Of a stretch of 64,000 nucleotides of DNA, positions 9,545 to 64,000 are shown in pieces. A program made the position numbers and the translations under genes. Origin of the DNA: Cupriavidus malaysiensis (lineage in GTDB: Bacteria > Pseudomonadota > Gammaproteobacteria > Burkholderiales > Burkholderiaceae); contig NZ_CP017754.1 in assembly GCF_001854325.1 (NCBI RefSeq), positions 372,001 to 436,000 on the forward strand. The letters run 5' to 3'. Numbering within the stretch: position 1 is the first letter of the stretch; every line of letters begins with the position of its first letter. Below the pieces are notes generated by a model. It searched no databases, had not been told where the DNA came from, and saw nothing but the letters and a program-made list of their open reading frames with translations.

Positions 9545-9604
9545 TTGTGTATCAGGAAAAAACAGCCTATGCTTTGTAAAGTAAAAATACAGGCCATAGA
9601 CTGT
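9545..9604 (+). promoter_or_regulatory. hipBA promoter and overlapping operator
   Basis: TTGTGT at 9545-9550 and TATGCT at 9568-9573 are separated by exactly 17 bp and make a plausible sigma-70 promoter. A 10-bp inverted repeat with one mismatch, ACAGCCTATG (9562-9571) and CATAGACTGT (9595-9604), covers the -10 and the transcription start. It ends directly before the hipB ATG. HipB family antitoxins repress their own promoters through such repeats, so this is probably the autoregulatory operator. Confidence 0.6.
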
Positions 9605-44600: not shown

Positions 44601-44707
44601 CGAATTTCCCAGAGTGTGAACTATCCACTGCTCGTCGCTCATCGCTCAGCTGGAAGCTAAAGCTGAAAATCCCCAATGCATCGAAAATGCGGATAACGTG
44701 GCCGGCT

Positions 44708-45142: not shown

Positions 45143-45151
45143 CACTGGGCA

Positions 45152-45634: not shown

Positions 45635-45644
45635 GTAGCCCTAG

Positions 45645-45820
45645 GGCAACGGACAGCAGGCACGCGGAGGCCAAAGCATGATGAAGATCGCGAAAGCGCG
45701 GTTGCCGAAGGCACTCCGCGCTGCCTCCGGCGTCGCCTTGCTGCAGGAGCCGCCGGCCAAGCTGCACGCCATCGACCTGAAGATCCGCGCCGACGACCTG
45801 GCGTACCACCGCTACGGAGA
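45645..45820 (+). pseudogene. Recombination scar: copy-2-like 5' end fused to a piece of the 43899 gene
   Basis: From about 45645 to 45735 the sequence follows the upstream region and first codons of array copy 2 (MMKIAKARLPKALRAASGVAL compared with the KAQLPKAFHAVAGIAML part of copy 2). At 45741 it switches to 75 bp that match 44289-44363 inside the gene at 43899 with four mismatches, in the same reading frame. It is too short to be a working gene. The junction looks like the remains of a duplication and deletion within the array. Confidence 0.75.
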
Positions 45821-45825
45821 CCGAG

Positions 45826-46257
45826 ATGCTGAAAGCCATTGTCTTGCTGCTCGTCGGGCTTTCATGGAACGCCTACGCGTGCAAGCTCCCCTATATCGAG
45901 TATGAGCCGGTGTTCGAGGTTGGGGATCGTGCTCTGTCTGGAAGCGAAGTGAAGCGTATGGCCTTCTGGCGCAGCGATACACGTCGAGCCTTTCCCGCAG
46001 GCTTTCGCGTAGACATCGTGGTTTGGCAGAACAGCTACGCCGGCATTTCGGCGTCACTTGCATAGGATCGGTCCGAGCATCTGAGAACCCTGCTACGGAA
46101 TCTCGGCGTACCGCAAGACGACATCGTAGAGGTGGGGATTCGAAGAAACACCATGCGGCTTAGCAAGCCCGGGGCTGAGGCGCTCTTCAACCGTGCCGAA
46201 TTACACCTGGCTCCGCGCTGTCCGCATGCGTGCTGCGACCTGGGCGATCTCAGGTAG
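45826..46257 (+). pseudogene. Exported Cys-rich protein, array copy 3, one nonsense codon
   Basis: The frame reads MLKAIVLLLVGLSWNAYACK at the start, matches copy 4 through GFRVDIVVWQNSYAGISASLA, meets TAG at 46063-46065, and then continues in the same frame to PRCPHACCDLGDLR and a stop at 46255-46257. Everything except that one codon is intact, including the terminal CPHxCC motif. It is a recent pseudogene, unless the TAG is suppressed or is a sequencing error. Confidence 0.8.
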
Positions 46258-46281
46258 AGGGCATCGTCTTATACACAAGCC

Positions 46282-46716
46282 ATGATGCGTCAATTGGCCG
46301 TGCTCTTGATTCTTGGCGTTTCCTTGAATGCCTGCGCTTGCAAGCCTCCGTACATAGAATATGAATCGTTCTTCGAGTCCGGCTCGGGATCACTATCCAG
46401 CGAGGAGATACGACGCATGCTGGATTGGCGCGACAAGACGCGCCAGGCCTTCCCGGCAGGATTCGAGGTTCTCATTGAGGTGTGGGAAAACCCCAGTGCA
46501 GGTATCCCACCATCGCTCGTCTCGCGTCGCGTGGCGTTCCTGCGCGGCTTGCTTGAGAACCTGGGCGTGGCGCGTCGGGATATCGGCCCGGAAGACGTGT
46601 ATCAGAGCAGGGAAAAGATCCTCGTCATGGAGCACGAGCGATTCCTCAACACTGCATCGTTGATTCTTCAGCCACGCTGCCCGCATCTCTGCTGCGATCA
46701 AGGGAACCTTCGCTAG
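46282..46716 (+). CDS. Exported Cys-rich protein, array copy 4
   Basis: The 144-residue protein has a short signal peptide (LAVLLILGVSLNACA), a mature start CKPPYIEYESFFESG, the helix SEEIRRMLDWRDKTRQAFPAGF and the terminal motif CPHLCC. It pairs with the broken copy 3, while copies 1 and 2 form the other pair, so two duplications are implied. It is probably periplasmic. Function is unknown; candidate immunity protein from context. Confidence 0.62.
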   Translation: MMRQLAVLLILGVSLNACACKPPYIEYESFFESGSGSLSSEEIRRMLDWRDKTRQAFPAGFEVLIEVWENPSAGIPPSLVSRRVAFLRGLLENLGVARRDIGPEDVYQSREKILVMEHERFLNTASLILQPRCPHLCCDQGNLR

Positions 46717-47592: not shown

Positions 47593-48570
47593 ATGAGTGA
47601 TCATGCGTCCCAGGCTGGAAAACGACCCGCGCCTGAGCGCCCCAGACCTGCTGAGCCCCTGCGCGCACCGACCAATCAGCAGTTCCTTACCCAAGAGCCC
47701 CGTTTCCAGTTGGATCGCGATCTGGTGCTATCTCAAGGCACCTCGCTGCGGCTCTCTGAATGCCTCACCAAACTCCGTCATCGCAAGACGATCTATGTCG
47801 ACTGGAATTTCGGCTCAGTCGATCCGATGGGACTCAGCACCATCCTCAATTTCTATGGGCCGCCCGGCACCGGCAAGACCATGGCTGCCGAGGCCCTCGC
47901 AGGCACCCTGCAAATGCCGTTCATGCCTCTAGGCATCGCTGAACTGGAAAGCAAGTTCATGGGCGACACTGCGAAGAACATACAGGCGGCCTTCGAGGCG
48001 GCGCGCATGGAAGGCGCGCTACTCTTCTTTGACGAAGCGGACACCTTGCTCGGGAAGCGGCTGTCGTCTGTCACGCAGGGCGTCGACAACGAGGTCAATG
48101 CGATGCGCTCGACGTTGCTCATCGAACTCGAACGTTTTGACGGCATCGTCGTCTTCGCCACCAACTTCGCCAAGAACTACGACGAGGCATTCCGCAGCCG
48201 CATCAGCTATCACGTGCATTTCGACCTCCCCGATCTTGCTGCACGCAAACGCTTGTGGGGCCGGATGCTGGTGCCCGATATCCCGATCGAAAGCACGCGC
48301 GATGCGTTGGTCACTCATGCTGCGACATTAAGCGACGGGTTCTCAGGACGCGAGATCCGCACGTGCATGCGCTTGGCCTTGCCCAAGGCACTGCAAGATG
48401 CCGAGCGCCTGTCGCGTCCAGCCGCCCTTGCCACCACGCACATCGAAGCAGCGATCGGCGAAGTCCGCCGTGCAAACACGGAGATCTCCAGTACTCAGCC
48501 TGTTGCTAAATCGGCAGCCGGCGATGTAACCATCAGCCGGCAGCTGCTTGGCGTCACTCACGTACAGTAA
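47593..48570 (+). CDS. AAA+ ATPase of the Zorya-like operon
   Basis: The 325-residue protein is one AAA+ module. Walker A GPPGTGKT is at 89-96, Walker B LLFFDEAD at 143-150, sensor 1 FATNF and arginine finger in NYDEAFRSRI, followed by the small helical lid. The pore-loop region GIAELESKFMGDTAKN resembles FtsH/spastin-type ATPases that thread or remodel proteins. No helicase or nuclease motif is present. The gene starts the operon; the next begins 13 bp after its stop. A GTG at 47584 is an alternative start. In this context it may remodel the channel complex or its helical partner; that is inferred. Confidence 0.82.
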   Translation: MSDHASQAGKRPAPERPRPAEPLRAPTNQQFLTQEPRFQLDRDLVLSQGTSLRLSECLTKLRHRKTIYVDWNFGSVDPMGLSTILNFYGPPGTGKTMAAEALAGTLQMPFMPLGIAELESKFMGDTAKNIQAAFEAARMEGALLFFDEADTLLGKRLSSVTQGVDNEVNAMRSTLLIELERFDGIVVFATNFAKNYDEAFRSRISYHVHFDLPDLAARKRLWGRMLVPDIPIESTRDALVTHAATLSDGFSGREIRTCMRLALPKALQDAERLSRPAALATTHIEAAIGEVRRANTEISSTQPVAKSAAGDVTISRQLLGVTHVQ

Positions 48571-48583
48571 GAAGAGGAAAAAA

Positions 48584-49852
48584 ATGGGATTCCTGTCCTC
48601 GATCGCATCCGGCTTTCGGAGTGTGGTCTCAGCAGTAGCTACCGGCGCCAGAAAGGTCTATGAAACGGCCAAGGAGGTGGCGGGCAAGGCTATTGGATGG
48701 TTGGCGGACGAGGCCGAAACTTTCGTGGGCTCAGTCAAGGAAACTTGGAAGAAGGTGCGCCCTGTGTTGGCTGCCATCAAGCCATACTTCAAAGACGCCG
48801 CAGCATTAGCCTTGAAGAACAACCTCCCTTGGCTCGGCGCCGCCATCCTCGTGCTGGACAGGGTGCTGACGGAACTGTTTAAGCTCGAGAACAGCCCGGT
48901 ACTAAAAAGGCTCGATGCCGCAATCCAGTGGTCCATCCGCTGGGCACGTGAATTCAAGTCGCGCATGACAGAGGCGGAGGCTGCTGAAGCGCGCCGTCAT
49001 CGCAAGATATTTGACGAAGCCCAGGCGAGCCTTCCCGCGAAAGTCAAGCGCGAAATTGATATGGCGTCACTGATCAATGACTACGCCTTGGCTTGCGAGG
49101 GCGTTGAGGCAATGCTCGAAGCCGAAGAAATTGCCGACTTCGATCACTACCTCCGCCTGCGTGCCACTCAAAAACTGTTGCGCATGGCCGAAGACACGCT
49201 TCGCTCAGCCAAGGACGTGGAATCCATTTCCGATGACGATATCTTCTTGGTAAGGATTGCTTCTGCACTAATCGCGCCGACGCCGACACTGACGCAGTCC
49301 GAGGGGGAACATCTGGACCAGATCATTCAGAAGCGCTACCGGAAGAACCTACTGCCGTTCGTGTTCGAAGAGCTCACAAAGTCCTGGGACTTGGCTCTTC
49401 AGGCGGACGAGAAGCGATGGGAGCTGGAAAATCGGAGAGTGGCAAAGGACCGCGTGCTTAAGCGCCAACTCGAAACCCAGCAGCTTCTGGGTGAACTGTC
49501 GGCAGAGGAGGCATCAATGCTGACAGATTTGCAGGCGACAGTTCCCGGCCTCACGGCTGCCACCGAAGCCCTCGCAAAGCTCAATCGGGAGCGCCGAAAC
49601 TACGTGTACGCGAGCGAAGGTTTCCTGCAACTGCTGGAAAAGAGCGAAGAGCAACTCGCAAGCGAAGACAAGACGTACTTGATCAGCCAGGGGCGTGAGG
49701 TCGGCATGATCCTGATCGACTGCGCTCAGAACGGGAAGCCGTGGGATGGCCTTACCGCCGAGCAACAGTCGCTCATCATCGACTTTGCCAATATCTTCGA
49801 AAGCGCATCGCACGCACGCGGAAACCTGTTGGAGGTAGAGAGCCATGCTTGA
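48584..49852 (+). CDS. Amphipathic-helix protein of the Zorya-like operon, family unknown
   Basis: The 422-residue, almost wholly helical protein starts with amphipathic segments (GFLSSIASGFRSVVSAVATG, residues 2-21, and a following Ala/Lys helix) that could lie on a membrane. A weakly hydrophobic stretch (NLPWLGAAILVLDRVL, near 80-95) and long charged helices, including a likely coiled coil (about 270-310), follow. No catalytic motif is visible. ATG 48584 follows AGAGG. It overlaps the channel gene by 8 bp, so the two are probably made in fixed ratio. I cannot place it among ZorC, ZorD, ZorE, ZorF or ZorG. Confidence 0.75.
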   Translation: MGFLSSIASGFRSVVSAVATGARKVYETAKEVAGKAIGWLADEAETFVGSVKETWKKVRPVLAAIKPYFKDAAALALKNNLPWLGAAILVLDRVLTELFKLENSPVLKRLDAAIQWSIRWAREFKSRMTEAEAAEARRHRKIFDEAQASLPAKVKREIDMASLINDYALACEGVEAMLEAEEIADFDHYLRLRATQKLLRMAEDTLRSAKDVESISDDDIFLVRIASALIAPTPTLTQSEGEHLDQIIQKRYRKNLLPFVFEELTKSWDLALQADEKRWELENRRVAKDRVLKRQLETQQLLGELSAEEASMLTDLQATVPGLTAATEALAKLNRERRNYVYASEGFLQLLEKSEEQLASEDKTYLISQGREVGMILIDCAQNGKPWDGLTAEQQSLIIDFANIFESASHARGNLLEVESHA

Positions 49853-51362
49853 GCTACTGGATCAGTTGCGCCATTTCCTGACGCCTCAATTGCAACCGCT
49901 GGAACCTCTGCAGATAGCATTCTTCACCATCATCTTTGGTTTCGCGGCGTACACCTGCCTCGGGCTCAGACACGCGAAGCCGGAGAACTGGGAGCGCAAC
50001 TGGCATCGCGAAGCGGGCGATGATGCAGCGAACCTAGACGTCGAGCATGGTTCGGTCAACGACCTCTGCGCAGCAGTGGCTACCAAGCAGGAGAAGCTGG
50101 CCGATATCATGCCCGGCATGCTTCTCATCGTGGGTCTGCTCGGCACGTTCATCGGCCTGGGCATGGCACTGGACAAGGCCTCGATGATCCTGTCTGATGC
50201 ATCCGGTGGCGGCAACGTGGACGCCATGATGGGCAACCTTATGTCGATGATGCACGGCCTCGGGTCCAAGTTCAAAACATCGACCTGGGGCATTGCGGCC
50301 TTCCTGATCCTCAAGACTTGGAGCAGCCGCGTCAACTACGACGGGCACCGCCTGTCCTGGTGCGTGGCAAAGATGAAGGGCGAGGTTGACCGTCGGCACA
50401 GTGAAGCACGCAACCTGCAGCAGGAAGACAATGCGCGCATTGTCGACGCCATCGGAATGCTGGGAAGTACGATGAAGCAGATCGCCGAGTTGCAGGCCAA
50501 CGCGATCGTCGAGCGGCACCTAGAAATGCTGGAAGCCCAGAAGCACGCGCACAAACAGCAGATTGCGCAGCTGAGCGACGTAGCCGACGAGTCGAAGAAG
50601 ACGCGTGATGCCATGGAATCGTTCGTTGACGGGGTATCGGGAAGCACCGCTGCTGTCGCCGACGCCGCGAAGAAGATGGCCAAAGCAGCAGCTGACACCG
50701 TTCGCTCGACCAATGATCTCCAGTCTGTCATCGGCGAGTTGCGCACCGGCGTGAGTGAGGTGATCGGCGACATGAATCGGGAGCTGGGCAAGACGATCGA
50801 CAACATGGGGCACTCGTTCGCCGAGCATATGAACATCATCTCGGAACGTCTGGGGGGCGCCGCCAACGACATATCGAGTTCGATCAATCGACTATCGTCC
50901 AACGTCGACGAGACGCTGCAGGGTGTCAAAAAATCGATCGAGGATTCGCAGGCGACTCAAACCAAGGCATTCGTCCTATTCAATAGCACAAGCACAACGC
51001 TTGAGGGCAATATTGAGGCCATGACCGGCCTGGTGACAGAACTGCGCAAAGACATTACCAACGGTCTAGGATCAGTCGCAACAACAGGCCGGAAGATCGC
51101 TGAGATTTCCACCGCAATCGTCGAAGCGAGCGAAAAGACTGTCATGGCTATCGGCAAGACCGTCGAAGATAGCAAGGCGATATCCAGCGATCTCGGCAAC
51201 GCGACGAGCGCCATGCAAGGCGTTGCAATAGCCCTGCAGAAGAACGTGGGACAGGACGATCTTGTGAAAGCCGTGAACAGCATCGACCGCCAGGTTTCGG
51301 ATCTGCTAGGCAAGGCATCGCGCCCGGCCGCGTCGAGACGCCGCCTCACCCTTGATGCCTGA
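49845..51362 (+). CDS. ZorA-like MotA/TolQ/ExbB-family channel protein
   Basis: The 505-residue protein has a first membrane helix at 22-41, a second at 89-108 with the family motif GLLGTFIGLG, and a third at 145-161 preceded by FKTSTWGIA. These are the parts of MotA/TolQ-type proton channel subunits. From residue 165 on, a 340-residue helical tail with heptad-like repeats (SSSINRLSSNVDETL and similar) extends into the cytoplasm, as in ZorA of Zorya systems, where the tail carries the signal from the stator. The ribosome binding site GGAGGTAGAG precedes ATG 49845. ZorB-like gene follows after 11 bp. Confidence 0.85.
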   Translation: MLELLDQLRHFLTPQLQPLEPLQIAFFTIIFGFAAYTCLGLRHAKPENWERNWHREAGDDAANLDVEHGSVNDLCAAVATKQEKLADIMPGMLLIVGLLGTFIGLGMALDKASMILSDASGGGNVDAMMGNLMSMMHGLGSKFKTSTWGIAAFLILKTWSSRVNYDGHRLSWCVAKMKGEVDRRHSEARNLQQEDNARIVDAIGMLGSTMKQIAELQANAIVERHLEMLEAQKHAHKQQIAQLSDVADESKKTRDAMESFVDGVSGSTAAVADAAKKMAKAAADTVRSTNDLQSVIGELRTGVSEVIGDMNRELGKTIDNMGHSFAEHMNIISERLGGAANDISSSINRLSSNVDETLQGVKKSIEDSQATQTKAFVLFNSTSTTLEGNIEAMTGLVTELRKDITNGLGSVATTGRKIAEISTAIVEASEKTVMAIGKTVEDSKAISSDLGNATSAMQGVAIALQKNVGQDDLVKAVNSIDRQVSDLLGKASRPAASRRRLTLDA

Positions 51363-51373
51363 AGGCACATTCC

Positions 51374-52018
51374 ATGAAAGAGAAGCCAAACGAGTGGGTG
51401 GCCATTGCGGACCTGATGGCTGGCGTGATGGCTGTGGTGATGTTGCTGCTGGTCCTATCGGTCGTTCAGCGACAGTACGCGGAGATTCGCCACAAGGCGG
51501 AAATGGAACAGGGTTCGGCCGCCTATCGCAAGCACATCACCGAGATGCTGCAGGACATGAAACAGACGTTCTCAAGCCAGGGCTTGGAGGGGCTAGTTTC
51601 AATCGATTCGGACGCCGGCAAGATCACGCTGCGCGACGGCGTCTTTTCACGTGGAAGCGCCTGCATCACGCCTGAGGCAAAGATGGCCATCGCACAGATA
51701 GAAGCGAAAGTCGCCGACTATCTTGCGCGGATCCCCGGCGGTCAAATCTACGTGGAAGGCCATACCGACAATCTTCAAGTCTCCCGGCCAGTGACCGACT
51801 TCGCTCACTATTGCACCGTCTATGATGACAACTACACGTTGTCCGCGGCTCGTGCACGTGAAGCTCGGCGCTTGCTGATCGGCAAGCTCGGTAGTCAAGT
51901 TGCTAAGCGCGTGGTTGTGGCGGGCTTCGGCGACTCGCATCCGCTAGCGAACGTCGCGTCAGAAGACGCGCGCAACCGGCGAGTGGAAGTTCGATTCGTG
52001 GTGCAGCAGAACAGCTGA
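51374..52018 (+). CDS. ZorB-like MotB/OmpA-family stator protein
   Basis: The 214-residue protein has a single N-terminal membrane helix (about 12-31) with Asp13 in ADLMAGVMAVVML, at the place of the proton-carrying Asp of MotB/ZorB. A periplasmic linker leads to an OmpA-type peptidoglycan-binding domain (about 95-210), with the pattern IYVEGHTDN, LSAARAREARRLL and NRRVEVRF, the Asp and Arg that hold diaminopimelate. With the ZorA-like protein it should form an inner-membrane ion-driven motor anchored to the wall. It is the last gene of the operon. Confidence 0.87.
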   Translation: MKEKPNEWVAIADLMAGVMAVVMLLLVLSVVQRQYAEIRHKAEMEQGSAAYRKHITEMLQDMKQTFSSQGLEGLVSIDSDAGKITLRDGVFSRGSACITPEAKMAIAQIEAKVADYLARIPGGQIYVEGHTDNLQVSRPVTDFAHYCTVYDDNYTLSAARAREARRLLIGKLGSQVAKRVVVAGFGDSHPLANVASEDARNRRVEVRFVVQQNS

Positions 52019-52149: not shown

Positions 52150-52380
52150 CCATAGAGCAATGGCATGGCCGCGTCCTTCGTCAAGGCCATGCAGCGTGAC
52201 TACATAGTCGTCATGGACAAGCCGGAAGCGCCAATAGCACTCTCCCAATTTACCGCTGCATTCGAACACTACAACGAACATCACCCGCACAAAGCGTTGA
52301 GATATTGCACACCGGGGGAGCTTCGGCGAGCTGCCGCCATCAATTTAGCAATGTCCGGGTGTCCTGAGCTACGGAAGCAA
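52150..52380 (+). pseudogene. IS3-family transposase remnant (C-terminal end)
   Basis: The frame reads P-stop-SNGMAASFVKAMQRDYIVV and later FEHYNEHHPHKALRYCTPGELRR. This is the C-terminal part of an IS3-type OrfB integrase (after the second catalytic Asp, with SNGMAEAFVKT and NENHPHKAL counterparts). A TAG replaces the usual Gln. The rest of the element is gone. It marks past insertion directly after the Zorya-like operon. Confidence 0.8.
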
Positions 52381-52388
52381 GTCCATGA

Positions 52389-52991
52389 TCAATGTCCGCC
52401 AAGGCCATACTCCACACGAAGCCCAGCGTTCCGCTGCAATATCCGGATTGTTTCCAATTGATTTAGTAGGTCATTCTTGAGCGATTGAACCTGTTCGTGA
52501 AGATGTAGCAATTGAATGCCGCGTCTATTGGAAGACAATGCGTCAACCACATCGTTCTCCGCTTCTCGGATTTCCGCTTCTAGTCGCAGTGCTATTTTCC
52601 TATTGCTATCGATTTCATTGAGTTTTGTGTAAAAATCATTCTCGATTCGGAGGGCTAGTGCGACGCCTATCAGCGCCATAGCCATAGGAATAACCGCCAA
52701 CTCCACAAATTTTGCCTGCCGGGTGTAGGCAATAGACAAGGACATGAGTATTCCTTTTGCGCCATCATCCAGCTTTCTAGCGTGTACCTCAAGCAGCTTG
52801 GTATCGTGGCTGGCAACAGTCTCCAGCCACCAATGAAAAAGAAACATCGTTAGGAGCAGGGCAATGCCAAGGCATAGCGGGATCCATGGTCTTTTTTTCC
52901 ATTGCACCCCGGCAAACTGATAAACCAACGTCAGCAGCATGACGCCGAAGACGGCCGCAGAAGAAAATACAGCAAGAGTGAACTTGTCCAT
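52389..52991 (-). CDS. Membrane protein with coiled coil, family unknown
   Basis: The 200-residue protein has membrane helices at about 6-28, 36-54 and 92-114, and a C-terminal charged helical region (KIALRLEAEIREAENDVVDAL...LHEQVQSLKNDLLNQLETI) likely to form a coiled coil in the cytoplasm. Its AT-richer codon use contrasts with the GC-rich chromosomal genes, which suggests transfer. It lies alone between two transposase remnants. Function is unknown. Confidence 0.65.
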   Translation of the reverse strand: MDKFTLAVFSSAAVFGVMLLTLVYQFAGVQWKKRPWIPLCLGIALLLTMFLFHWWLETVASHDTKLLEVHARKLDDGAKGILMSLSIAYTRQAKFVELAVIPMAMALIGVALALRIENDFYTKLNEIDSNRKIALRLEAEIREAENDVVDALSSNRRGIQLLHLHEQVQSLKNDLLNQLETIRILQRNAGLRVEYGLGGH

Positions 52992-53143: not shown

Positions 53144-53908
53144 ATGACGAAAGCGAAGTACCAACAACTACAACTCGAAGAGCGCATGCGCATCGAGATT
53201 TGGAAGGCAGCAGATCTCAGCCTGGGAGGCATTGCTCGCAGGCTTGGTCACGCGCCCTCGACACTGATGCGTGAGCTTCGTCGCAATGCCACCGCCCGTG
53301 GCGGCTATGGCGCAATGCGCGCGCAAGCCTGCCGTACATAACGCCTCAAAGCCAGCCGTCCAGCCCCTAGGCTTGCTACTGATGGCGTGCGGCGGGGCGT
53401 GGTGCGTCACTTCCTCGATCAGATGTGGTCGCCTCAGGAAATCTCCGCTACGCTCAAGCGGGGCTTTCCTGACCAACCCGACCTCAACGTGTCCCACGAG
53501 ACCATCTACATCGCCATCTACGCCTATCCGCGAGGTGAGCCGCGCCGCTAACTCATCGCCTGCTTGCGACAGGTCCGGGCCAAGCGTCTGCCGCGCTCGC
53601 GCGGAACCGACCGGTGCAGCCAGATGTCCCGACATGGTCAGCGTCTACGTGCGCCCGTTTGAGGTCAATGATCGGCTCATGCCCGGGCACAGGGAGGGCG
53701 ACCTCACTAAGGGGGGCAACCCATCGGCCGTAGGCGTACTGGTCGAGTGCATGAGCCGCGTCGTACTGCTGGTCAAGATGCAGGACGCTACCGCTGATCG
53801 GCTCTGGCCGGCTTTACCGTGAAGCTGCGATCCTTGGTGGCGCCGCTGCGTCAGACCCTGACTTACGACCAGGACCGGGAGATGACCCGGCACGCCGAAC
53901 TGAGCACT
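53144..53908 (+). pseudogene. Degenerate IS30-family transposase
   Basis: The N-terminal helix-turn-helix (YQQLQLEERMRIEIWKAADL, then LGHAPSTLMRELRRN) ends in TAA at 53339, and the same frame goes on (VVRHFLDQMWSPQEISATLKRGFP, HETIYIAIYAYPRGEPRR) to a second stop. A frameshift near 53620 is needed to read DMVSVYVRPFEVNDRLMPGHREGDLTKGG with the first catalytic Asp region. Another shift gives TYDQDREMTRHAELS. The last third with the catalytic Glu is missing. At least two stops and two frameshifts make it inactive. Confidence 0.85.
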
Positions 53909-54220: not shown

Positions 54221-57200
54221 CTAGGCGTATAGCTCGGAGCCGGACACTGCCGCACCCAGCCTATCGAACCACTGCCGCTCCCCAATCGGCGTCCCGAGCT
54301 GCGCCATCGCTTCGCCGAAGTACGGCATGTCACCCCACAGTGATGCGTCCCCAACGACGAACACGCGATTCTGCGCGCGCGTGACGGCGACATTGAGGAG
54401 GTTGGGTTTGGTCGCCGCCCATTTCGCCGATCCCGCGCTGTCGTGATCGGCACCGAGCACGAAGACGACGACATATTCCTCTTTGCCCTGAAACGTGTGC
54501 ACTGTGCCTATCCGCTCCCTGCACCAGGACGCCCAGGCCTTTTTGCTCGGAGCACGCTCGCCGGCCTCCGCTTGCCAATCGATCGCACGCAAGCGATCTT
54601 GCAGCGCGCGCTTGATCGCCTTGAAGGGCGAGATGACATACAGTGGAGGCAGTGTGCCGGAGGCCTGATACAGCCGCACTACCAGCTTCGCCACGATCTC
54701 GACCTGCTCGGGCACCACCTGCTTGCTGGCTGTTTTGCCGGACACATCGATCCACGCACTGTTTCCCAGGCGGAGCGGATCGGATGACGGCATACGCTCG
54801 GTCAGCCCGTACACCATCTTGCCGTGATAGGCGATCCGGTTCGCGATCGAGAACATCGGGTCGAGGCAGCGCCGGTGGACCCGCAATGGGCTGCCGATCC
54901 ACAGCGGCGGCGCGCCCTCCACGGGTACCGCAGTACCAAACGGATTGGCAGAGTCGGCCAATTGCTGTGCGGAGGTCATGGTGGGTGCGCAGCGCTTGTC
55001 GGAGGTGTGTGCCGACAGTTCCGCCAGTGCGTCGATCAATCGGCTCGGCACGGTGAAGACTGGCTCGATCTGTAGCGGGTCGCCGACGACCATGGCCCTT
55101 CGTGATCGCCATAGCGCACCGACCGCTGCCTGCGGCACGGCCTGGCCGGCCTCGTCGATGAACAGCCAGCCGATCGAGCCGGGGCCCATGCCGCGGAACT
55201 GCCGTGCGAACGACGCAAAGGTCGATGAGACCACGGGTACCATCAAGAACAAGCTCTGCCAGAGGAGCAGAGCTTGCTCTGGCCTTTGTAACGGCGGGCC
55301 GCTGAGCATCTTGCTGAGCGCGACCAAGTTCCCGCCGAAGCCGCCCCCCTTCTTTAAGACTTCGGCTAGCCAGGCCTCGTGCAAGGCCAAGGCAGCCACG
55401 GTCAATCCGGAGCGCAGTTGCGCCAAGGCTGAGTCTTGCCAGAGCCCGTCGCGCTGTACCTCGTCAGCTTCGATCGTTTCGGCGACACCCGGCACGCGCA
55501 TCTCGGGGAATTGCTCGCGATATGCGGCCAGCTTGTCCTGCTTTTCACGCCAGCTGGTGCGGGCCTTGTGCAGGTCTTGCTCGGCGCGTGCATGGAGCGC
55601 TTGTGCGTCGCGTAGGGTCGAACCTGTTGCGGCGGCTTCGGCGCGGCAGCGGGCTGCCAGCTTACGCGCCGCGATCTGTTCCCCGGCATTACGAGCCACA
55701 TCGCCGGCATGCTGCCGAGCGGCGGCCGTGCGGAACAGCCTGGACAGCATCCCTGGCTTCGCGCGATCGAGCAGGCGCTCTTCTTCGCGCAGGTCGGCGA
55801 GGGCGCTGTCGGCTGCCTGATGGGCGCTTTGGCTGCGTTCGGCGGCGGCATTGGCCTGCTCAACCTGCTGCGATGACGAGGCGAGCGCCGCCGAAGCCGT
55901 CCGCGTGGCCGCTTCCTCCGTCACCTCAGACCAGGCGGCCTGCAGTTCGGCGTAGTCCTTTCGTTGGTCGAGTGCCTGCTGCAAGGCCTGGTCTGCGCGC
56001 TGGAAGGCCCGTTTGGCCTCGTCGAAGGTCGGGCCAACATACTGGGCGCGCCATGTCCAGATCGTCTGGTAGTCATCGGAAGCGGTCCGATTGTCGGAAC
56101 CCCGGGCGTCGAAGAAGACGCGATCCACAAATCGACGGCGGTTCTTCGAATTGCCCAGCGCACAGGACACCAGTCCCCACGGTACGTCTTTGGGCTGCAG
56201 TCTGGTGAACTTGGCACGGCTGTTCTGTGCCGCGAGCTTGTGCGCAACCGGCTGCAGATAGCCGATCTCCTGCCATGCCTCGCCCAGCTGCTTGCGCTTG
56301 GGCAAGTCGGCGGAAATGTTCTCCACTGCCGCATTGTTCGACGATGCCACCACCATCTCAAATCCCGTGAGCTCCTGGCGCAGGACACCGACGGTCGCAT
56401 GGCTGCCATCGGCAAACTCCACGCGCTCGCGCACTGGGAATGCGCGGTCGGCGCTTGGCAAGCGGGCCAGCTCGCGTGCGCGGCGGACAATGTTCTCGCA
56501 GATCATGTCCCGCAGCAGCGTCGTCTTGCCGGTGCCCGGCGGGCCGTTGACGGAGAACAGTCCGCTATCCTTGAGCCGATCGAACGCCGTATTGATGGCG
56601 AATTGCTGCATCAGGCTCATCTTGCGCGTCGCGTCTTCCGGCCAGTGCCCCGCATTCATCTTGGCGGGATGCAGTGCCCGTATGATCTCCTGGCGGCCGG
56701 CATCGGTGTACAGGTCGACGCGCCGGCTGGGATCGCCCGGTAGCAAGTAGGCGCGCACGGTTTCAGGAACTTTTCCCTCACGCACGGACGCTATGCACCG
56801 CTCGATGTCCTCGATGAAGAAGCTGTTCAGGATGTCGATCTTCTGCGCTTCCTCTTCGGTATCGTCGTCGTCTTCGTCACCGCTCTCATTTTTCGCCGGA
56901 CCGTTAGGCTTGTTCGGCGACAACGACGCTGGACCACTCCCGCTCGCTGGCGTGCCGCGGCTTGCCGTTTCTCCGTGCTCCTTTCGCTCCTTCGAGTTGA
57001 TCTCAAGAAGTGCTACAAGAGACGACGGCGGCCACAAGCAGCCCGCCCAATCCAGCAGCAACGCATTCAACGTACGTAGCTCGTCGCCCGTCAGGGGGAG
57101 CGGTTTGGCCTCGTCGCCGCCGCTGGTGCGTTGCTGGCGGCGTTCAGATGCGAAATCGGCCAAACGGTCCGCCAGGCCGCGTCGCGCTGCGTCGAAGGTC

Positions 57201-57649
57201 CCAGCGCTGAGAGCGCCGAGTCCCGCTTGCTCTGCGGTGCCGATCGCCCACGGCACGGTCGACACGGAAATTGGATCAAGCACCGGCTCCCCATAGGGGC
57301 TCAGCGATACGCGCGCAATGCACGTGCGGCCATCCAACGTGGTGCGCTCTTCCTCCTCCACGGCATCGGACGTACCGTCGGATGGCAACGCACGGGCGAA
57401 ATCTATGATCCGCTGCATGTCGAACACGCCGAGATACAGCTTGAATCCCGTCAGCTCGCGCCCTTCGGGCACGGTCACGTTCTGCCAGGGCATGGGCCCG
57501 TCGGGCGCGAGGGCATCAGGCTGGATCCATCGGACCGCACCGTCGTCCTCGTCCGCCTTGTCCAGCACCTGCTTCAGGTCGAACGGGATGAAGAACTCGA
57601 TCTTGTGCCAGTAATCGAGAATGTCGAGGAGTTGTTCTTGTTCGGCCAT
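54221..57649 (-). CDS. Large UPF1/DNA2-type superfamily 1B helicase
   Basis: The 1142-residue protein has an N-terminal region of about 340 residues with an acidic linker (DEDDDDTEEE), then Walker A NGPPGTGKTTLL near 366. A long charged coiled-coil insertion (about 580-750) separates it from Walker B LFIDEAGQAVPQ near 830, motif III VVGDPLQIEPV and the C-terminal VHTFQGKE and LNVAVTRAQNRVFVVGD motifs. This is the DEAG-box UPF1/DNA2 type. Similar large helicases occur beside restriction genes in defence islands. No nuclease motif is evident. ATG 57649 gives the likely start; it is divergent from hsdM. Confidence 0.85.
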   Translation of the reverse strand: MAEQEQLLDILDYWHKIEFFIPFDLKQVLDKADEDDGAVRWIQPDALAPDGPMPWQNVTVPEGRELTGFKLYLGVFDMQRIIDFARALPSDGTSDAVEEEERTTLDGRTCIARVSLSPYGEPVLDPISVSTVPWAIGTAEQAGLGALSAGTFDAARRGLADRLADFASERRQQRTSGGDEAKPLPLTGDELRTLNALLLDWAGCLWPPSSLVALLEINSKERKEHGETASRGTPASGSGPASLSPNKPNGPAKNESGDEDDDDTEEEAQKIDILNSFFIEDIERCIASVREGKVPETVRAYLLPGDPSRRVDLYTDAGRQEIIRALHPAKMNAGHWPEDATRKMSLMQQFAINTAFDRLKDSGLFSVNGPPGTGKTTLLRDMICENIVRRARELARLPSADRAFPVRERVEFADGSHATVGVLRQELTGFEMVVASSNNAAVENISADLPKRKQLGEAWQEIGYLQPVAHKLAAQNSRAKFTRLQPKDVPWGLVSCALGNSKNRRRFVDRVFFDARGSDNRTASDDYQTIWTWRAQYVGPTFDEAKRAFQRADQALQQALDQRKDYAELQAAWSEVTEEAATRTASAALASSSQQVEQANAAAERSQSAHQAADSALADLREEERLLDRAKPGMLSRLFRTAAARQHAGDVARNAGEQIAARKLAARCRAEAAATGSTLRDAQALHARAEQDLHKARTSWREKQDKLAAYREQFPEMRVPGVAETIEADEVQRDGLWQDSALAQLRSGLTVAALALHEAWLAEVLKKGGGFGGNLVALSKMLSGPPLQRPEQALLLWQSLFLMVPVVSSTFASFARQFRGMGPGSIGWLFIDEAGQAVPQAAVGALWRSRRAMVVGDPLQIEPVFTVPSRLIDALAELSAHTSDKRCAPTMTSAQQLADSANPFGTAVPVEGAPPLWIGSPLRVHRRCLDPMFSIANRIAYHGKMVYGLTERMPSSDPLRLGNSAWIDVSGKTASKQVVPEQVEIVAKLVVRLYQASGTLPPLYVISPFKAIKRALQDRLRAIDWQAEAGERAPSKKAWASWCRERIGTVHTFQGKEEYVVVFVLGADHDSAGSAKWAATKPNLLNVAVTRAQNRVFVVGDASLWGDMPYFGEAMAQLGTPIGERQWFDRLGAAVSGSELYA

Positions 57650-57850
57650 GCGTTGAGGATTCCCTGGTCTTGGCTGTTTGTTTGTCTCTGTGCATATTCT
57701 CGCACTCTCGATCACGTAGCGAGGCTGTGAAAAGCGGGGGTTTTTTGAAGGCGACGTTGGATGCAGCCGTCCTACTGCATATCCCTCAAGAACAAGGGGA
57801 CGAGGGCGGCCGGCCTTGAGTAAAATGCCGTGGCAACGTACTGAAAATCA

Positions 57851-57910: not shown

Positions 57911-59755
57911 ATGAACCACCAAGCCCTCTCGTCATTCATCTGGTCCGTCGCAGACCTGCTCCGCGGCGACTACAAGCAGTCGGAATACGGCCGCGTCATC
58001 TTGCCGTTCACCGTGCTGCGCCGCCTGGACTGCGTGCTGGAGCCGACCAAGAAGGCAGTCCTCGCCGAGCGGGATGCCAAGACCAAGGCCGGCCTGAATC
58101 CGGATCCCTTCCTGCTGCGCAAGGCGGGAGGCATTGGCTTCTACAACACGAGCGAGCTCGACCTGATCAAGCTGCTGGGCGACCAGGATCACATCCGTCA
58201 GAACCTCTATGCCTACGTCCAAGCCTTTTCGCCAGCGGCGCGCGATATTTTCGAGCGCTTCGACTTCTTCACCCAGGTGGAGCGTCTGGCCAAGTCGAAC
58301 CTGCTCTATCTGGTAACGGAGAAGTTCGCCAACATCGACCTGCATCCCGAGACGGTGGACAACGCCAGCATGGGGCTGGTGTTCGAAGAGCTGATCCGCA
58401 AGTTCGCCGAAATCAGCAACGAGACGGCAGGGGAGCACTTCACCCCGCGCGAAGTCATCCGCCTGATGGTGAACCTGCTGTTCATCGAGGATGACGACGT
58501 GCTTTCGCCGGGCAACGCCGTGGTGCGCACCATCTATGACCCGACGGCCGGCACGGGTGGCATGCTTTCGGTGGCGGGCGAGTACCTGCTCGAACACAAC
58601 CCCCAGGCGCGGTTGACCATGTTCGGCCAGGAACTCAACGACGAGTCCTACGCCATCTGCAAGGCAGACATGCTCATCAAGGGCCAGCCGGTGGAGAACA
58701 TCATCGCCGGCAATACGCTCAGCGAAGACGGTCACGGCGGACGCCAGTTCGACTACATGCTCTCCAATCCGCCGTTCGGCGTGGAGTGGAAGAAGGTCGA
58801 GAAGGTCGTGCGCCAGGAGCATGAAAGCAAGGGCTTCGACGGCCGCTTCGGGCCGGGCCTGCCACGCGTGTCGGACGGCTCCATGCTGTTCCTGCTGCAC
58901 CTGATCTCCAAGATGCGCCCGCTGCAGGACGGCGGCAGCCGTTTCGGCATCGTGCTCAACGGCTCGCCGCTCTTCACCGGCGGTGCCGGCTCTGGCGAAA
59001 GCGAGATCCGCCGCTATGTACTGGAGAACGACCTGGTGGAAGCCATTGTCGGCTTGCCCACCGACATGTTCTACAACACGGGCATCTCCACCTATGTCTG
59101 GATCCTGTCCAACAAGAAGCCGGCCGACCGCAAGGGCTATGTGCAGCTGATCGATGCCAGCAGCTTCTGGCAGAAGATGCGCAAGAGCCTGGGCAGCAAG
59201 CGCAAGGAGATGAGCGACGACCACATCGCCACCGTGACTCGCCTGTTCGGTGATTTCACAGAAGCCGAGCTGGTGACGGTGTTCGATGCGGCAGGCCAGC
59301 AGGTCGGCGAAGCGAAGCTGGTCACGGGTACGGACAATGCGCCGGCTGTGCCGGAGGGCGGCAAGCTCAAGCGTGTGCCGATTGCGCGGATCTTCAAGAA
59401 CGAGGACTTCGGCTATACGACCATCACCGTTGAACGGCCGCTGCGCGATGAGGCGGGCGAGGTCGTGGTGGGACTGAAGGGCAAGCAGAAAGGCAAGCCG
59501 CAGCCCGATAGCGCGCTACGTGATACTGAGAATGTGCCGCTGGCCGAAGACATTGGTGCGTACTTCGAGCGTGAGGTACTGCCGCACGCAGCGGATGCCT
59601 GGATCGACGAGGAGAAAAGTAAGGTGGGCTACGAGATCCCGTTCAACCGGCACTTCTATGTGTTTGAGGCACCGAGGAGCTTGTGCGCGATAGACGAGGA
59701 GTTGAAGGTGACATCGGCAAGCATTATGAAGATGCTAGCGGAGTTGGCGGAATGA
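57911..59755 (+). CDS. hsdM: Type I restriction-modification methyltransferase subunit
   Basis: The 614-residue protein has the N-terminal HsdM helical domain ([20 protein letters not shown]), the S-adenosylmethionine motif [10 protein letters not shown] near 210 and the N6-adenine catalytic motif NPPFGVEW near 286. It should methylate adenine within the site set by HsdS. The C-terminal part is longer than in compact HsdM proteins, with an extra region ending in helix-rich sequence. It overlaps hsdS by ATGA. Confidence 0.92.
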
Positions 59756-61134
59756 GAATGCCAAGGTATCCAGAGTACAGAAAGAGTGGGGTGCACTGGT
59801 GTGCGGAGGTGCCATCGACTTGGGAGATATGTGCTCTTAAGCGGATTGTTCTCAAGGTCGAGTCCGGTGTCAGCGTTAATGCAGTTGATGCACCGGCGAA
59901 TCCGTACTCTCCGGGTGTTCTTAAGACTAGTTGTGTCTATGGGGGGGTGTTCGACCCCAGTGAGAATAAGGCCGTGCTCGAAGACGAATTCGGTCGCGTC
60001 GCTTGTCCAGTCAAGGCGGGGGCTTTAATTGTAAGTCGGATGAATACGCCTGCTCTTGTTGGAGCTGCGGGCCTAGTTCGAGAAAGTAATGAAAATCTGT
60101 ATTTGCCAGATCGCCTTTGGCAAGTTCATTTCGATGCGGTTGCCCCGGCTTTTGTTCACTACTGGACGCTTTCACTTGCCTATCGCACTCAGGTTGAAAT
60201 GGCCTGTGATGGTACCAGCTCAAGCATGCAAAATCTGGCCCAAAGCGACTTTATGCGGTTCACAATTGCGCTGCCGAGTCGCGATGAACAGACCGCTGTT
60301 GTTAGCTTTCTTGACCATGAAGTCGCTAAAATTGACGCACTTATTTCTGAACAGAAAAGGCTCATCGCCTTGCTGGTCGAGAAGCATCAAGCTACGATCG
60401 CTCACGCTGTCGCACGTGGTTTGAACTCTGATGTCCAGTTGAAGGATTCTGGGGTGGAGTGGCTCGGGGAAATTCCAGTGCACTGGAAGACGGGGAAGAT
60501 CCAGTCCTTCGCGCGTCGTGAGTCGGGTCACACGCCAAGCCGGCAAAATCCTGAGTACTGGAAAAATTGCACGATTCCTTGGTTCTCACTCGCTGACGTT
60601 TGGCAAATACGGGAAGGTAACGTCAGATATGTCTATGAGACGAAGGAGATGATTAGTGAGTTGGGTATTGCGAACTCCTCGGCTCGATTGCTTCCGGCGG
60701 GTACGGTGATTCTCTCTCGGACAGCCTCTGTTGGCTACTCTGCCATCATGGGGTGTGATATGGCGACTACGCAGGACTTCATTAATTGGGTCTGCGGGCC
60801 GCAACTTGTGCCGGAATTTCTCCTGTATGTGCTACGTGGGATGAGGTCGGAGTTCGATAGACTTATGATGGGCTCTACACATCAGACTATCTATATGCCA
60901 GATGTTGCGAAGCTTGCAATGGCCTTGCCCCCAAAAAATGAGCAGCAGGAGATCGTCGAATTTCTCGATTTTTCCCTTGCTAAGCTTGAAGTGCTTAAGC
61001 GCGAAGCGGAGCGGATGATATCTCTTCTCAAGGAACGGCGCGGCGCCATAATCGCGGCGGCCGTCACCGGCCAGATCGACGTTCGCAAGGCAGGTGCCCG
61101 CCCGATGGTCGCACGGGAACTCGCAGCTGCATGA
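59752..61134 (+). CDS. hsdS: Type I restriction-modification specificity subunit
   Basis: The 460-residue protein has two target-recognition domains, each opened by the same pattern ([18 protein letters not shown] near 8, [20 protein letters not shown] near 228). Each is followed by a conserved helix ([22 protein letters not shown] and [22 protein letters not shown]). The site is therefore a split sequence, which cannot be read from the protein. Codon use and AT content differ sharply from hsdM, as is usual for exchanged specificity genes. ATG 59752 overlaps the hsdM stop. Confidence 0.9.
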
Positions 61135-62066
61135 GCGACATCCAACTCTTCCGCCTAAACGCCGGCAAAGTCACAGAACTCACCGGCCAAGCGGCCCCAC
61201 TGGAAAAGACCCTGCAGACCCTCTTCGAGAGTCAGATGGAGCCCCTGCTAGGCGTGCGCTTCCTCGCGACCGAGTACACCACCGGCAAAACCCACAAAGG
61301 CCGCATCGACTCGCTGGGCCTGGACGAAAACGGCTGCCCAGTCATCGTCGAATACAAGCGCCACAGCAATGAGAACGTCATCAACCAGGGCTTGTTCTAT
61401 CTCGACTGGCTGCTGGACCATCAGGCCGAGTTCCGCTGGCTGGTGATGGAGAAACTGGGCAAGGCAGTGGCTGACCAGATCGAGTGGTCCGGCACGCGCT
61501 TGCTGTGCATCGCCGCCGACTACACCCGCTACGACCAGCACGCCGTCCAGCAGATCCCTCGCAACATCGAGCTCCTCCGCTACAAGTTGTTCGGTGACGA
61601 CCTGCTGTTGCTGGAGCTGGTGAATGCGCAGAGCGTGCCAGACGCAACGGCCGTGAAGCCGGCCGCGGCGAAGGCGTTGCCCGAAGAACCGGTCCAGCCG
61701 AAGGCTGCAAGTAAGGACAAGTCCCTGGCCGAGCAATTGGAGTTGGCCACGCCGGAAATCCGCGCCCTGTACACGCAGATCGTCTCCTTCCTGCAGGCGC
61801 TGGGCGAAGACGTTCAGGAGAAGCAACTCAAGCTCTACACCGCCTTCCGGCGCCTGAAGAACTTCGCCTGTGTGATCGTCTACCCCTATCGGCTCGTCGT
61901 AACGCTAAAGCTTGACCCCGCTACGGTCGTCATGGAAGGGGAGTTCAGCCGAGACGTCAGCCAGGTCGGCCACTGGGGCACCGGCGACGTGGAGCTCAGC
62001 CTGCGCAACGCGCACGACCTGGAGCGCGCCAAGCCTTTGCTGGAGCGAAGCTACACAGAGAACTGA
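61131..62066 (+). CDS. PD-(D/E)XK-like protein with DUF5655-type C-terminus
   Basis: The 311-residue protein has an N-terminal nuclease-like fold with Asp60 in GRIDSLGLD and ExK at 74-76 in VIVEYKR. An Ala/Lys linker (about 170-200) leads to a C-terminal domain resembling DUF5655 (about 205-308, YTQIVSFLQALGEDVQEKQLKLYTAFRRLKNFACV, read in parts). It overlaps hsdS by ATGA and precedes hsdR by 60 bp, so it belongs to the operon. It could be a modulator or an extra nuclease of the restriction system; its activity is not proved by the motif. Confidence 0.75.
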   Translation: MSDIQLFRLNAGKVTELTGQAAPLEKTLQTLFESQMEPLLGVRFLATEYTTGKTHKGRIDSLGLDENGCPVIVEYKRHSNENVINQGLFYLDWLLDHQAEFRWLVMEKLGKAVADQIEWSGTRLLCIAADYTRYDQHAVQQIPRNIELLRYKLFGDDLLLLELVNAQSVPDATAVKPAAAKALPEEPVQPKAASKDKSLAEQLELATPEIRALYTQIVSFLQALGEDVQEKQLKLYTAFRRLKNFACVIVYPYRLVVTLKLDPATVVMEGEFSRDVSQVGHWGTGDVELSLRNAHDLERAKPLLERSYTEN

Positions 62067-62126
62067 CGCTGCCATCGGCAAGCAGGCCGCACCGAACAAT
62101 TCGAAGAACACGCATCAGGGAAGACC

Positions 62127-64000
62127 ATGAGCCAGAAGAACCTGCACCAGGAGCATCACTTCGAGGAGGAGATCTGCCAGCACCTGGCCAAGCATGGCTG
62201 GCTGTACGCCGAAGGCGATGCCGCCCAGTTCGACCGCGCCAACGGTCTGTTCCGCCCAGACCTGCTGGCCTGGGTAGAAGCCACTCAGCCTGAGAGCTAC
62301 CAGCGCCTGGCCAAGACTCACGGCGCTGCGCTGCCCCAGGTGCTGGCCGAGCGCGTGCGCAAGAACCTCAACGAGCGCGGCACGCTGGACGTGCTGCGGC
62401 GCGGCGTGGAGATGCTGGGCCTGAAAGAGCCGCTGATGCTGGCGCAGTTCAAGCCGGCGCTGGCCATCAACCCAGCCATCCAGGCGCACTACGCGGCCAA
62501 CCGGCTGCGCGTGGTGCGGCAAGTCTGCCACTCGCCGAACCAGCCTAAGGACGAGCTGGACTTGGTGCTGTTCCTCAACGGCATTCCAGTGGCTACCGCC
62601 GAGCTGAAATCCGACTTCACGCAGAGCGTGCACGATGCGGTGGACCAGTACCGCTTCGACCGCCCGCCGCAGCCCAAGGGCGGTGTGCTGGAGCCCTTGC
62701 TTGCCTTCCCGGGCGGCGCGCTGGTGCACTTCGCCGTCAGCCAGTCGGAAGTGATGATGGCCACCAAGCTGGCGGGGCCGGCCACCACCTTCCTGCCCTT
62801 CAACCGAGGCAATGCCGGCGGCGCCGGCAATGCGCCGAACCCCGATGGCTTCCGCACGGCCTACTTGTGGGAGGAAGTCTGGTCGCGCGAGAGCTGGCTG
62901 GACATCCTGCATCGCTATCTGATCGGCAAGCGCGACGACAAGAAGCAGCTCAAGGCCGTCATCTTCCCGCGCTATCACCAGCTCGACGCCACGCGCAAGC
63001 TGGTGGCAGACGTCCTTGTCAACGGCCCCGGCAACCGCTACCTGATCCAGCATTCCGCCGGCTCCGGCAAGACCAACTCCATTGCCTGGACGGCGCATTT
63101 CCTGGCCGACCTGCACGACGCCCAGCACAACAAGCTGTTCGACAGCGTACTGGTGGTGAGCGACCGCACCGTGCTCGATGCACAGTTACAGGAAGCGATC
63201 TTCGATTTCGAGCGCACCACCGGTGTGGTGGCTAGCGTCACCAACGAGCACGGCAGCAAGAGCGCCCAACTCTCGCAGGCGCTGAAGGACGGCAAGAAGA
63301 TCATCGTCTGCACCATCCAGACCTTCCCCTTCGCGCTGAAAGCCGTGCAGAGCCTGGCTGCCACGGAGGGCAAACGTTTTGCGGTGATTGCTGACGAAGC
63401 CCATAGCTCCCAGACAGGCGAGGCCGCCTCCAAGCTCAAGGAGTTGTTGTCGGCGGAGGAGTGGGCGGAGCTCCAGGACGGAGGAGAGGTGGATACGGAA
63501 GCGCTGCTGGCCGCCCAGATGGAAGCCCGCACCGGCGCGAAGGGCTTGACCTACGTCGCCTTTACCGCCACCCCCAAAGGCAAGACGCTGGAACTGTTCG
63601 GGCGCAAGGGGGCGGATGGCATGCCGCAGCCCTTCCATGTCTATTCCATGCGCCAAGCCATCGAGGAAGGCTTCATCCTCGACGTGCTGAAGAACTACAC
63701 CAGCTACAAACTGGCCTTCAAGCTCGCCCACGACGGCCAGGAGTTCGACGACAAGCAGGTCGAACGCAGCGCCGCCATGAAAGGCGTGATGCAGTGGGTG
63801 CGGCTGCATCCCTACAACATCGCCAGCAAAGTGCAGATCATTGTCGAGCACTACCGCGAGAACGTGCAGCCGCTGCTCGAGGGCAGGGCCAAGGCCATGG
63901 TCGTGGTCGGCAGCCGCAAAGAGGCCGTGCGCTGGCAGAAGGCCATCCGAGCCTACATCGCCAAGCAGAACTACCCGCTGGGCGTGCTGGTCGCCTTCTC
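62127..64000 (+). CDS. hsdR: Type I restriction endonuclease subunit, 3' end outside window
   Basis: The first 624 residues are visible and the frame is open at the edge. The N-terminal nuclease has the site DELDLVLFLNG and ExK in ATAELKSDF (about 145-160). The motor has Walker A HSAGSGKTNS near 315 and DEAH-type IADEAHSSQ near 420. HsdR pulls DNA through the complex and cuts at a distance from the recognition site. ATG 62127 follows AGGGAAGACC. With hsdM and hsdS it completes a type I system; the visible part is intact. Confidence 0.92.
   Translation, partial: MSQKNLHQEHHFEEEICQHLAKHGWLYAEGDAAQFDRANGLFRPDLLAWVEATQPESYQRLAKTHGAALPQVLAERVRKNLNERGTLDVLRRGVEMLGLKEPLMLAQFKPALAINPAIQAHYAANRLRVVRQVCHSPNQPKDELDLVLFLNGIPVATAELKSDFTQSVHDAVDQYRFDRPPQPKGGVLEPLLAFPGGALVHFAVSQSEVMMATKLAGPATTFLPFNRGNAGGAGNAPNPDGFRTAYLWEEVWSRESWLDILHRYLIGKRDDKKQLKAVIFPRYHQLDATRKLVADVLVNGPGNRYLIQHSAGSGKTNSIAWTAHFLADLHDAQHNKLFDSVLVVSDRTVLDAQLQEAIFDFERTTGVVASVTNEHGSKSAQLSQALKDGKKIIVCTIQTFPFALKAVQSLAATEGKRFAVIADEAHSSQTGEAASKLKELLSAEEWAELQDGGEVDTEALLAAQMEARTGAKGLTYVAFTATPKGKTLELFGRKGADGMPQPFHVYSMRQAIEEGFILDVLKNYTSYKLAFKLAHDGQEFDDKQVERSAAMKGVMQWVRLHPYNIASKVQIIVEHYRENVQPLLEGRAKAMVVVGSRKEAVRWQKAIRAYIAKQNYPLGVLVAF

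Follow-up and report, generated by a model that had tools for sequence, protein, structure and literature searches.

A candidate new type of Zorya anti-phage system in Cupriavidus malaysiensis, in which a ZorAB-like pair is joined by an AAA+ ATPase and an all-helical protein

What kind of system is encoded where a ZorA/ZorB-like pair stands behind two partners that belong to none of the described Zorya types? The question is raised by a four-gene operon of Cupriavidus malaysiensis (assembly GCF_001854325.1, contig NZ_CP017754.1), found at positions 47593-52018 of a 64,000-nucleotide stretch of DNA (positions 372,001 to 436,000 of the contig; hereafter the window). In order, the operon encodes an AAA+ ATPase, an all-helical protein that we call H2, a ZorA-like channel subunit and a ZorB-like stator. 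The original prediction, made from the letters of the window, had described these genes as one Zorya-like unit with non-canonical partners, and its reading frames, coordinates and intergenic spacings (+13, -8 and +11 bp) all proved correct; an alternative in-frame GTG start for the AAA+ gene lies upstream, at 47584. The known types of Zorya are I, II and III (PMC11890865; PMC8565338). As predicted, neither the AAA+ protein nor H2 matches a PADLOC model of ZorC, ZorD, ZorE, ZorF or ZorG. As no published Zorya system with an AAA+/H2 pair was recognised in the literature searched, we propose the operon as a candidate new type of Zorya anti-phage system ('type IV', a label of our own) whose soluble arm would consist of the AAA+ protein and H2.

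The two downstream proteins have the anatomy that had been predicted for them. The ZorA-like protein combines the channel helices of the MotA/TolQ/ExbB type with a long cytoplasmic tail, as ZorA does: GLLGTFIGLG starts at residue 97, KFKTSTWG at residue 142, and a helical tail of about 335 residues (340 in the prediction) follows the third membrane helix. It matches the PADLOC models ZorA1 (E 9e-14), ZorA3 (5e-7) and ZorA2 (3e-6), shows a weak match to PDB 8VVN over the GTF/TS-WG region (E 0.0034) and remains below the NCBIfam cut-offs (ZorA_1, 47.4 of 190 bits; ZorA_2, 32.5 of 100 bits). The patterns GTFxGL and KFxTSxWG are present in all 16 ZorA sequences checked, and operon copies have tails of 318 to 568 residues. 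The ZorB-like protein has a single membrane helix with Asp13, set in ADLMAG, followed by a periplasmic OmpA/Pal-type domain (Pfam PF00691), from which peptidoglycan binding is predicted; both features had been anticipated. By PADLOC scores it appears about equally close to the type I, III and II models (ZorB1, E 5e-22, 76.8 bits; ZorB3, 2e-19, 67.8 bits; ZorB2, 4e-16, 57.5 bits), it reaches 23.6 of 400 bits with the NCBIfam ZorB1 family, and it also resembles MotB/PomB. Judged by these profile scores, the ZorA-like and ZorB-like proteins are related to, yet outside, the named Zorya families of NCBIfam.

A tree of ZorB sequences (47 rows) sets the operon proteins apart. One branch (100/99) holds 17 operon rows together with two ZorB rows from ZorAB pairs that lack the AAA+ gene and H2 (orphan pairs). 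Type III rows (100/100) and type I rows (98/91) form branches of their own, and type II rows cluster with one row from another search (99/99); these rows were chosen by the PADLOC ZorB1, ZorB2 and ZorB3 models, with partner genes seen for one type I case only, that of locus L019. Six MotB-like rows also form their own branch (90/87), outside which the operon ZorB rows fall, unlike a flagellar MotAB stator. The tree is unrooted, with a root placed arbitrarily for display, and it includes several long type I branches; we therefore claim separateness from it and not relationship. Moreover, the clade has a signature of its own. The membrane aspartate is kept in 19 of 19 rows, and the same 19 contain exactly two cysteines, C97 at (G/S)SAC and C147 at CTVYDDN, both in the periplasmic domain, a pair that none of the 28 other rows of the tree has at these columns. 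We infer that C97 and C147 form a disulphide. Two further ZorB-like groups were noticed alongside. A Burkholderiales family marked by DEGEKPFWIS (L061, L062, L064 and L065) has its own branch in the tree (100/99). Of 120 Burkholderiaceae genomes, 74 match the ZorB3 ('Zorya III') family PDLC00651 at E<1e-100, the window's own genome among them (G000:C2:2123018-2123653); the family's occurrence is near-core and not patchy, and the ZorB3 pairs may have a housekeeping role.

The first gene of the operon encodes a single classical AAA module (Pfam PF00004, E 2e-25) with Walker A (GPPGTGKT, residues 89-96), Walker B (FFDEAD, 145-150), an aromatic pore-loop-1-like ESKFMG, an Arg-finger-like R203 and an LLG-type C-terminal tail; 'pore loop' and 'Arg finger' are names that we assign by comparison with classical AAA proteins. 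In an alignment of 16 homologues, both Walker motifs, ESK[FY][MV]G and the Arg of AFxxRI are kept in all 16, and the LLG-type tail follows a variable linker in 15 by pattern, the remaining sequence having ILG. Among solved structures the top scores are those of AFG2/VCP-type remodellers. The protein thus has the look of a functional remodeller that threads its substrates and carries a docking peptide, functions that we presume for these motifs from classical AAA proteins. Its best defence-family match is IetA (PADLOC, E 9e-29; NCBIfam, E 3e-27). IetAS consists of the AAA+ protein IetA and a protease partner; the operon protein, however, remains below the NCBIfam IetA cut-off (95.6 of 510 bits), no IetS is among the matches listed for H2, ZorA and ZorB, and no protease family is among those listed for any of the four proteins in PADLOC, Pfam and NCBIfam. 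In a separate observation, AAA relatives of about 35% identity were found on Comamonas and Moraxella plasmids (L105:2866-5145 and L106:3953-6374), each heading three small hypothetical genes of about 117-119, 123-130 and 206-232 residues, without ZorAB among the annotated genes of the stretch displayed. These gene rows possibly represent another AAA-based system.

H2, in which the original prediction had seen no nuclease or helicase, has no family match at E<=1 in any of PADLOC, Pfam and NCBIfam, and so falls in no known Zorya type by its PADLOC profile. When the 19 aligned H2 rows (the window's included) were compared with Pfam, matches were scattered, at E>=0.012, and none occurred in more than two rows. 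The AlphaFold2 model of the whole protein is all-helical with a predicted local distance difference test score (pLDDT) of 72.7; that of residues 80-422 is likewise all-helical (pLDDT 84.6, predicted template modelling score 0.73). Neither model matches a PDB structure at E<=0.001. A long helical hairpin is formed by residues 256-302 and 307-352. The N-terminus begins with MG[FWL][FLW]S in 18 of the 19 rows, and the N-terminal 45 residues exceed the remainder of the protein in hydrophobicity in all 19, which we count in favour of an action at the membrane. The best amphipathic windows of this segment exceed their own shuffles (p 0.000-0.040 for the best of 45 windows, uncorrected). Invariant polar residues are E45, H188, R191, Q196, E262, E263, E345, Q349, E352, N403 and R412; they form no recognised catalytic pattern.

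That the four genes belong together is supported by their recurrence. We searched genome sets at the level of genus, order, class and phylum, 84,980 species genomes, and plasmid, IMG/VR and phage records, with mechanical gene calls within loci. After removal of duplicates, 21 distinct loci contain H2, the window included. An AAA gene lies directly upstream of H2 in 20 (the contig of the other, L027, begins at H2), ZorA lies downstream in all 21, and ZorB was seen in all 21. Wherever both sides are visible in other loci, AAA+ and H2 are linked to ZorAB (19/19), and the gene order recurs in 20 further loci, which bears out the prediction of a single operon. Across 16 loci the four proteins have correlated pairwise distances (r 0.80-0.90), and for each pair none of 2000 permutations was as high. 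A chance grouping is rejected on the strength of this recurrence and correlation.

The operon is widely scattered and rare. Hosts are mostly beta- and gammaproteobacteria: Cupriavidus, Paraburkholderia, Caballeronia, Sphaerotilus, Janthinobacterium, Pseudomonas and Alishewanella. Searches for H2 detected it in 3 of 148 relatives, the window's own genome among them, and in 4 of the 399 order-level genomes; of 398 genomes of the phylum and 369 of the class only the window's own contained it, one 69-residue match in the class set being left uncounted. The clade ZorB occurs in 3 of 60 Cupriavidus genomes, which are also the three with H2, and in 3 of 230 genomes of the order, again all with H2. 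A scan of the species genomes for exact matches to two short ZorB peptide patterns gave 15 loci, of which 13 have AAA and H2 arranged as in the operon and two have orphan ZorAB. Among 72,556 plasmid records each of three queries found H2 in one, and a copy lies on a Paraburkholderia megaplasmid. Two IMG/VR contigs carry H2 (a single-sequence scan gave none); one copy has type I restriction-modification (R-M) genes upstream and, by eye, an integrase-like open reading frame (ORF) downstream. Lastly, an AAA-seeded search of phage records returned one further complete copy on a faecal scaffold whose phage label is unverified. We count this patchy occurrence in favour of a role in defence.

Table 1. 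Coordinates in the window of the operon genes and of the features downstream of them.
Feature	Position	Strand	Description
AAA+ ATPase gene	47593..48570	+	325 aa
H2 gene	48584..49852	+	422 aa, all-helical, no known family
ZorA-like gene	49845..51362	+	505 aa, MotA/TolQ/ExbB-type channel subunit
ZorB-like gene	51374..52018	+	214 aa, stator
IS3-type transposase, C-terminal remnant	52165..52461	+	downstream border; by eye in ORF translation
IS30-like transposase fragment (presumed)	53144..53341	+	Pfam HTH_38, E 2.7e-17
Superfamily 1 helicase, MkoC-like (Mokosh family)	54221..57715	-	PADLOC MkoC, E 1.3e-68; Pfam AAA_11/AAA_12
Type I R-M genes	57911..64000	+	HsdM, HsdS, DUF5655 protein, HsdR-like frame to window end

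The surroundings of the operon (Table 1) agree with the predicted defence island containing transposase remnants: two insertion sequence fragments, one IS3-like near 52165-52350 and one that we take to be of the IS30 group, an MkoC-like helicase and type I R-M genes adjoin it. The R-M assignment rests on PF02384/PF12161, PF01420 and DUF5655, and on the PADLOC families MTase_I (E 3e-272) and REase_I (E 3e-19). G+C content per 2 kb is 65-76% up to about 44 kb and 56-65% in the remainder of the window. Defence genes also flank the operon elsewhere, and they differ between loci. A complete Zorya I adjoins it in L019; JukA and JukB lie beside L004 and L011, JukB beside L021 and a JukA-like domain beside L017; and further flanks contain a PLD-helicase (L017), type I R-M (L018, L028), Zac/PDC-M27-like genes (L005, L012, L020), HEC-06-like genes (L004, L018), a NERD-UvrD protein (L009) and SoFic (L011). 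Of 50 flank proteins, 28 match PADLOC at E<=1e-5, against 1 of 10 in a random control; since the flank proteins were chosen and not drawn at random, this contrast is indicative. By locus, a flank match occurs in 13 of the 16 tested, or in 12 when the lone WYL regulator of L013 is set aside. When ORFs of at least 110 residues were compared across 19 loci, no neighbour was common to more than four. Two side observations concern these neighbourhoods. Juk genes adjoin the operon in 4 of the 16 loci tested, perhaps reflecting shared targets or shared islands. Directly upstream of the operon in the window, at 44597-46716, lies a row of small secreted-type proteins (181 residues, 160 residues, a short copy and 144 residues) that share the motif ACSF or ACK and look related by eye; the 144-residue member has no Pfam match.

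How, then, does the operon compare with known systems? The motor of Zorya I and II is ZorA5B2, which binds peptidoglycan and is driven by ions; its ZorA tail is proposed to bring ZorCD or ZorE to the place where the attack occurs (PMC11890865). Our operon shares with them a ZorA with MotA-like helices and a long cytoplasmic helical tail, and a ZorB with one helix, an ion-carrying Asp and a domain of the peptidoglycan-binding type. However, it lacks ZorC, ZorD and ZorE, AAA+ and H2 precede zorA, and its ZorB rows stand apart from type I and II rows and carry the two clade-specific cysteines. No PADLOC model of ZorC or ZorD matches AAA+ or H2, and neither the type II partner (ZorE/HNH) nor the type III partners are among the matches listed for the four proteins in PADLOC, Pfam and NCBIfam. 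Zorya III, which consists of ZorA/B with ZorF (DUF3348) and ZorG (DUF2894) (PMC8565338) and is reported to be common in the genera Burkholderia, Ralstonia and Paraburkholderia (PMC11890865), is alike in having two soluble partners, but these are not the partners found here, the operon ZorB lies on another branch, and ZorB3-family genes are frequent where the operon is rare. In JukAB, the pore-forming protein is JukB, which JukA recruits and which acts on the early vesicle of the phage (PMC13282480). A sensor with a membrane-acting effector would be common to JukAB and the operon, and Juk genes adjoin some of its copies; however, they are separate from it, H2 matches no Juk model, and no motor or AAA+ protein is described for JukAB in the sections of that source consulted (PMC13282480). 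The literature searched, from which Hu et al. 2025 (Nature) stood apart, gave no recognisable description of an AAA+/H2 Zorya. Such a system is likewise unnamed in the portions consulted of the Zorya II preprint (PMC13192584) and of a stator survey (PMC12505986); the latter, in those portions, leaves ZorAB out of its phylogeny.

The alternative to a defensive role is a non-defence envelope machine, such as a Tol-, Exb- or Mot-like maintenance device or surface sensor, whose location on islands is a coincidence. The likeness of the ZorB-like protein to MotB/PomB favours it, as do the two orphan pairs of the clade and the abundance of the ZorB3 family, which implies that ZorAB-like pairs need not be accessory. 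However, the operon is present in 3 of 60 Cupriavidus genomes and lies in a stretch of lower G+C content, copies occur on a plasmid, on IMG/VR contigs and on a phage-labelled scaffold, and differing defence genes stand beside 12 of 16 loci with no neighbour in more than four of the 19 compared. Given these neighbourhoods a non-defence role is less likely, and we consider it improbable. That the operon is a Zorya-like defence system we consider, by contrast, probable.

Several observations weigh against a Zorya-like defence system with a membrane-acting H2. Clade ZorAB pairs occur without AAA and H2 in L015 and L016 (Pseudomonas viridiflava and P. ovata; 8684-10678), and that of L015 lies, by reading, between type VI secretion system-like/NRAMP-like and TonB-receptor/ABC-like genes, a setting that suits an envelope machine; both orphans retain the key residues, with ZorA tails of 272 residues. 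Not every operon copy is intact, as zorA is broken in two. In L019 (Alishewanella jeotgali) it is split by an insertion, and in L021 (Pseudomonas lactucae) its reading frame is broken close to the start, at 7885-7997, either because the copy has decayed or through an error of sequencing. The flanks of L006, L010 and L027 have no PADLOC match among the 1, 5 and 1 proteins tested. Moreover, the 50 flank proteins were hand-chosen as long ORFs near the operon, partly after earlier matches, and the control comprised 10 proteins of two genomes; some ORFs called greedily in DNA of high G+C content may not be real genes. As for H2, a median of 32% of its stretches of equal length match the N-terminal 45 residues in amphipathicity, so that the N-terminus is not special within the protein in this respect; there is no clear membrane span (maximum 19-residue Kyte-Doolittle value of 1.07-1.75), and residues 1-22 are predicted with pLDDT below 50. 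The functional link between AAA+ and H2 is itself presumed. Separately, the two pieces of the L019 zorA flank a 395-residue ORF encoded on the other strand (L019:7226-8410), consistent with an insertion element.

In the mechanism that we favour, ZorA and ZorB would form an ion-driven motor in the inner membrane, tethered to peptidoglycan by ZorB, which, by homology to Zorya I and II, would sense the envelope disturbance at the site of phage entry. The ZorA tail would then pass the signal to, and presumably recruit, a soluble arm of AAA+ remodeller and H2, which would replace the nuclease arm of Zorya I and II. The remodeller, presumably a hexamer and perhaps docked through its conserved LLG-type tail, would release or load H2, whose N-terminal segment might act at or on the membrane near the entry site, thereby blocking infection or killing the cell. 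An AAA+ protein with a helical partner would fit such delivery of H2 to the membrane, a hypothesis whose membrane-acting output has JukB as a precedent (PMC13282480), and the anatomy is compatible with the originally predicted mechanism, in which the AAA+ protein activates or inserts a membrane-acting helical effector. The whole explanation, Zorya-like defence together with this mechanism and weighted to the defence part, is about evenly poised, tilting slightly towards acceptance. On its own, the hydrophobic N-terminus hints faintly at H2 as a membrane effector. We consider that role doubtful, having lowered our estimate somewhat because the amphipathicity of the segment is not special.

There are two other accounts of H2, and an unrecognised nuclease or an adaptor is about as likely as delivery to the membrane. 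In a new Zorya type, H2, alone or with AAA+, could act on nucleic acid as ZorD or ZorE do, through an unrecognised fold. Its 11 invariant polar residues would suit such an activity, but its profile and its all-helical model found neither a family nor a PDB relative at the thresholds given above, one histidine alone is conserved at >=80% with no R-x4-6-H pair of the HEPN type, and comparison of the H2 profile with one ZorC sequence, that of L019, by hhalign gave a probability of 0.5%; this account is a tentative possibility. H2 could otherwise be an adaptor or scaffold that ties the ZorA tail to an AAA+ unfoldase, which would dismantle incoming phage proteins at the entry site. The motifs kept in all 16 AAA homologues, the resemblance to AFG2/VCP-type remodellers and the helical bundle of H2 with its long hairpin are in keeping with this idea, to which we give the same tentative standing, whereas no protease family is among the listed matches, and the plasmid relatives without annotated ZorAB mark the AAA protein as a general module whose substrate is unreadable from homology.

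The operon is a conserved ZorAB operon without a recognisable nuclease or helicase; its other two genes encode an ATPase of the remodelling kind and a helical protein that belongs to no known family. A nuclease-free Zorya, in which a rotary envelope sensor passes its signal through an AAA+ remodeller to an all-helical protein loaded on the membrane at the entry site, is a shade more doubtful than a membrane role of H2 as such. If true, it would be the first Zorya with an end point other than nuclease recruitment, H2 would represent a new protein family, and the ZorAB motor would be a plug-in sensor for unlike outputs. The invariant periplasmic cysteines would offer a handle on the gating of the stator, and the orphan ZorAB pairs one on the gain and loss of modules.

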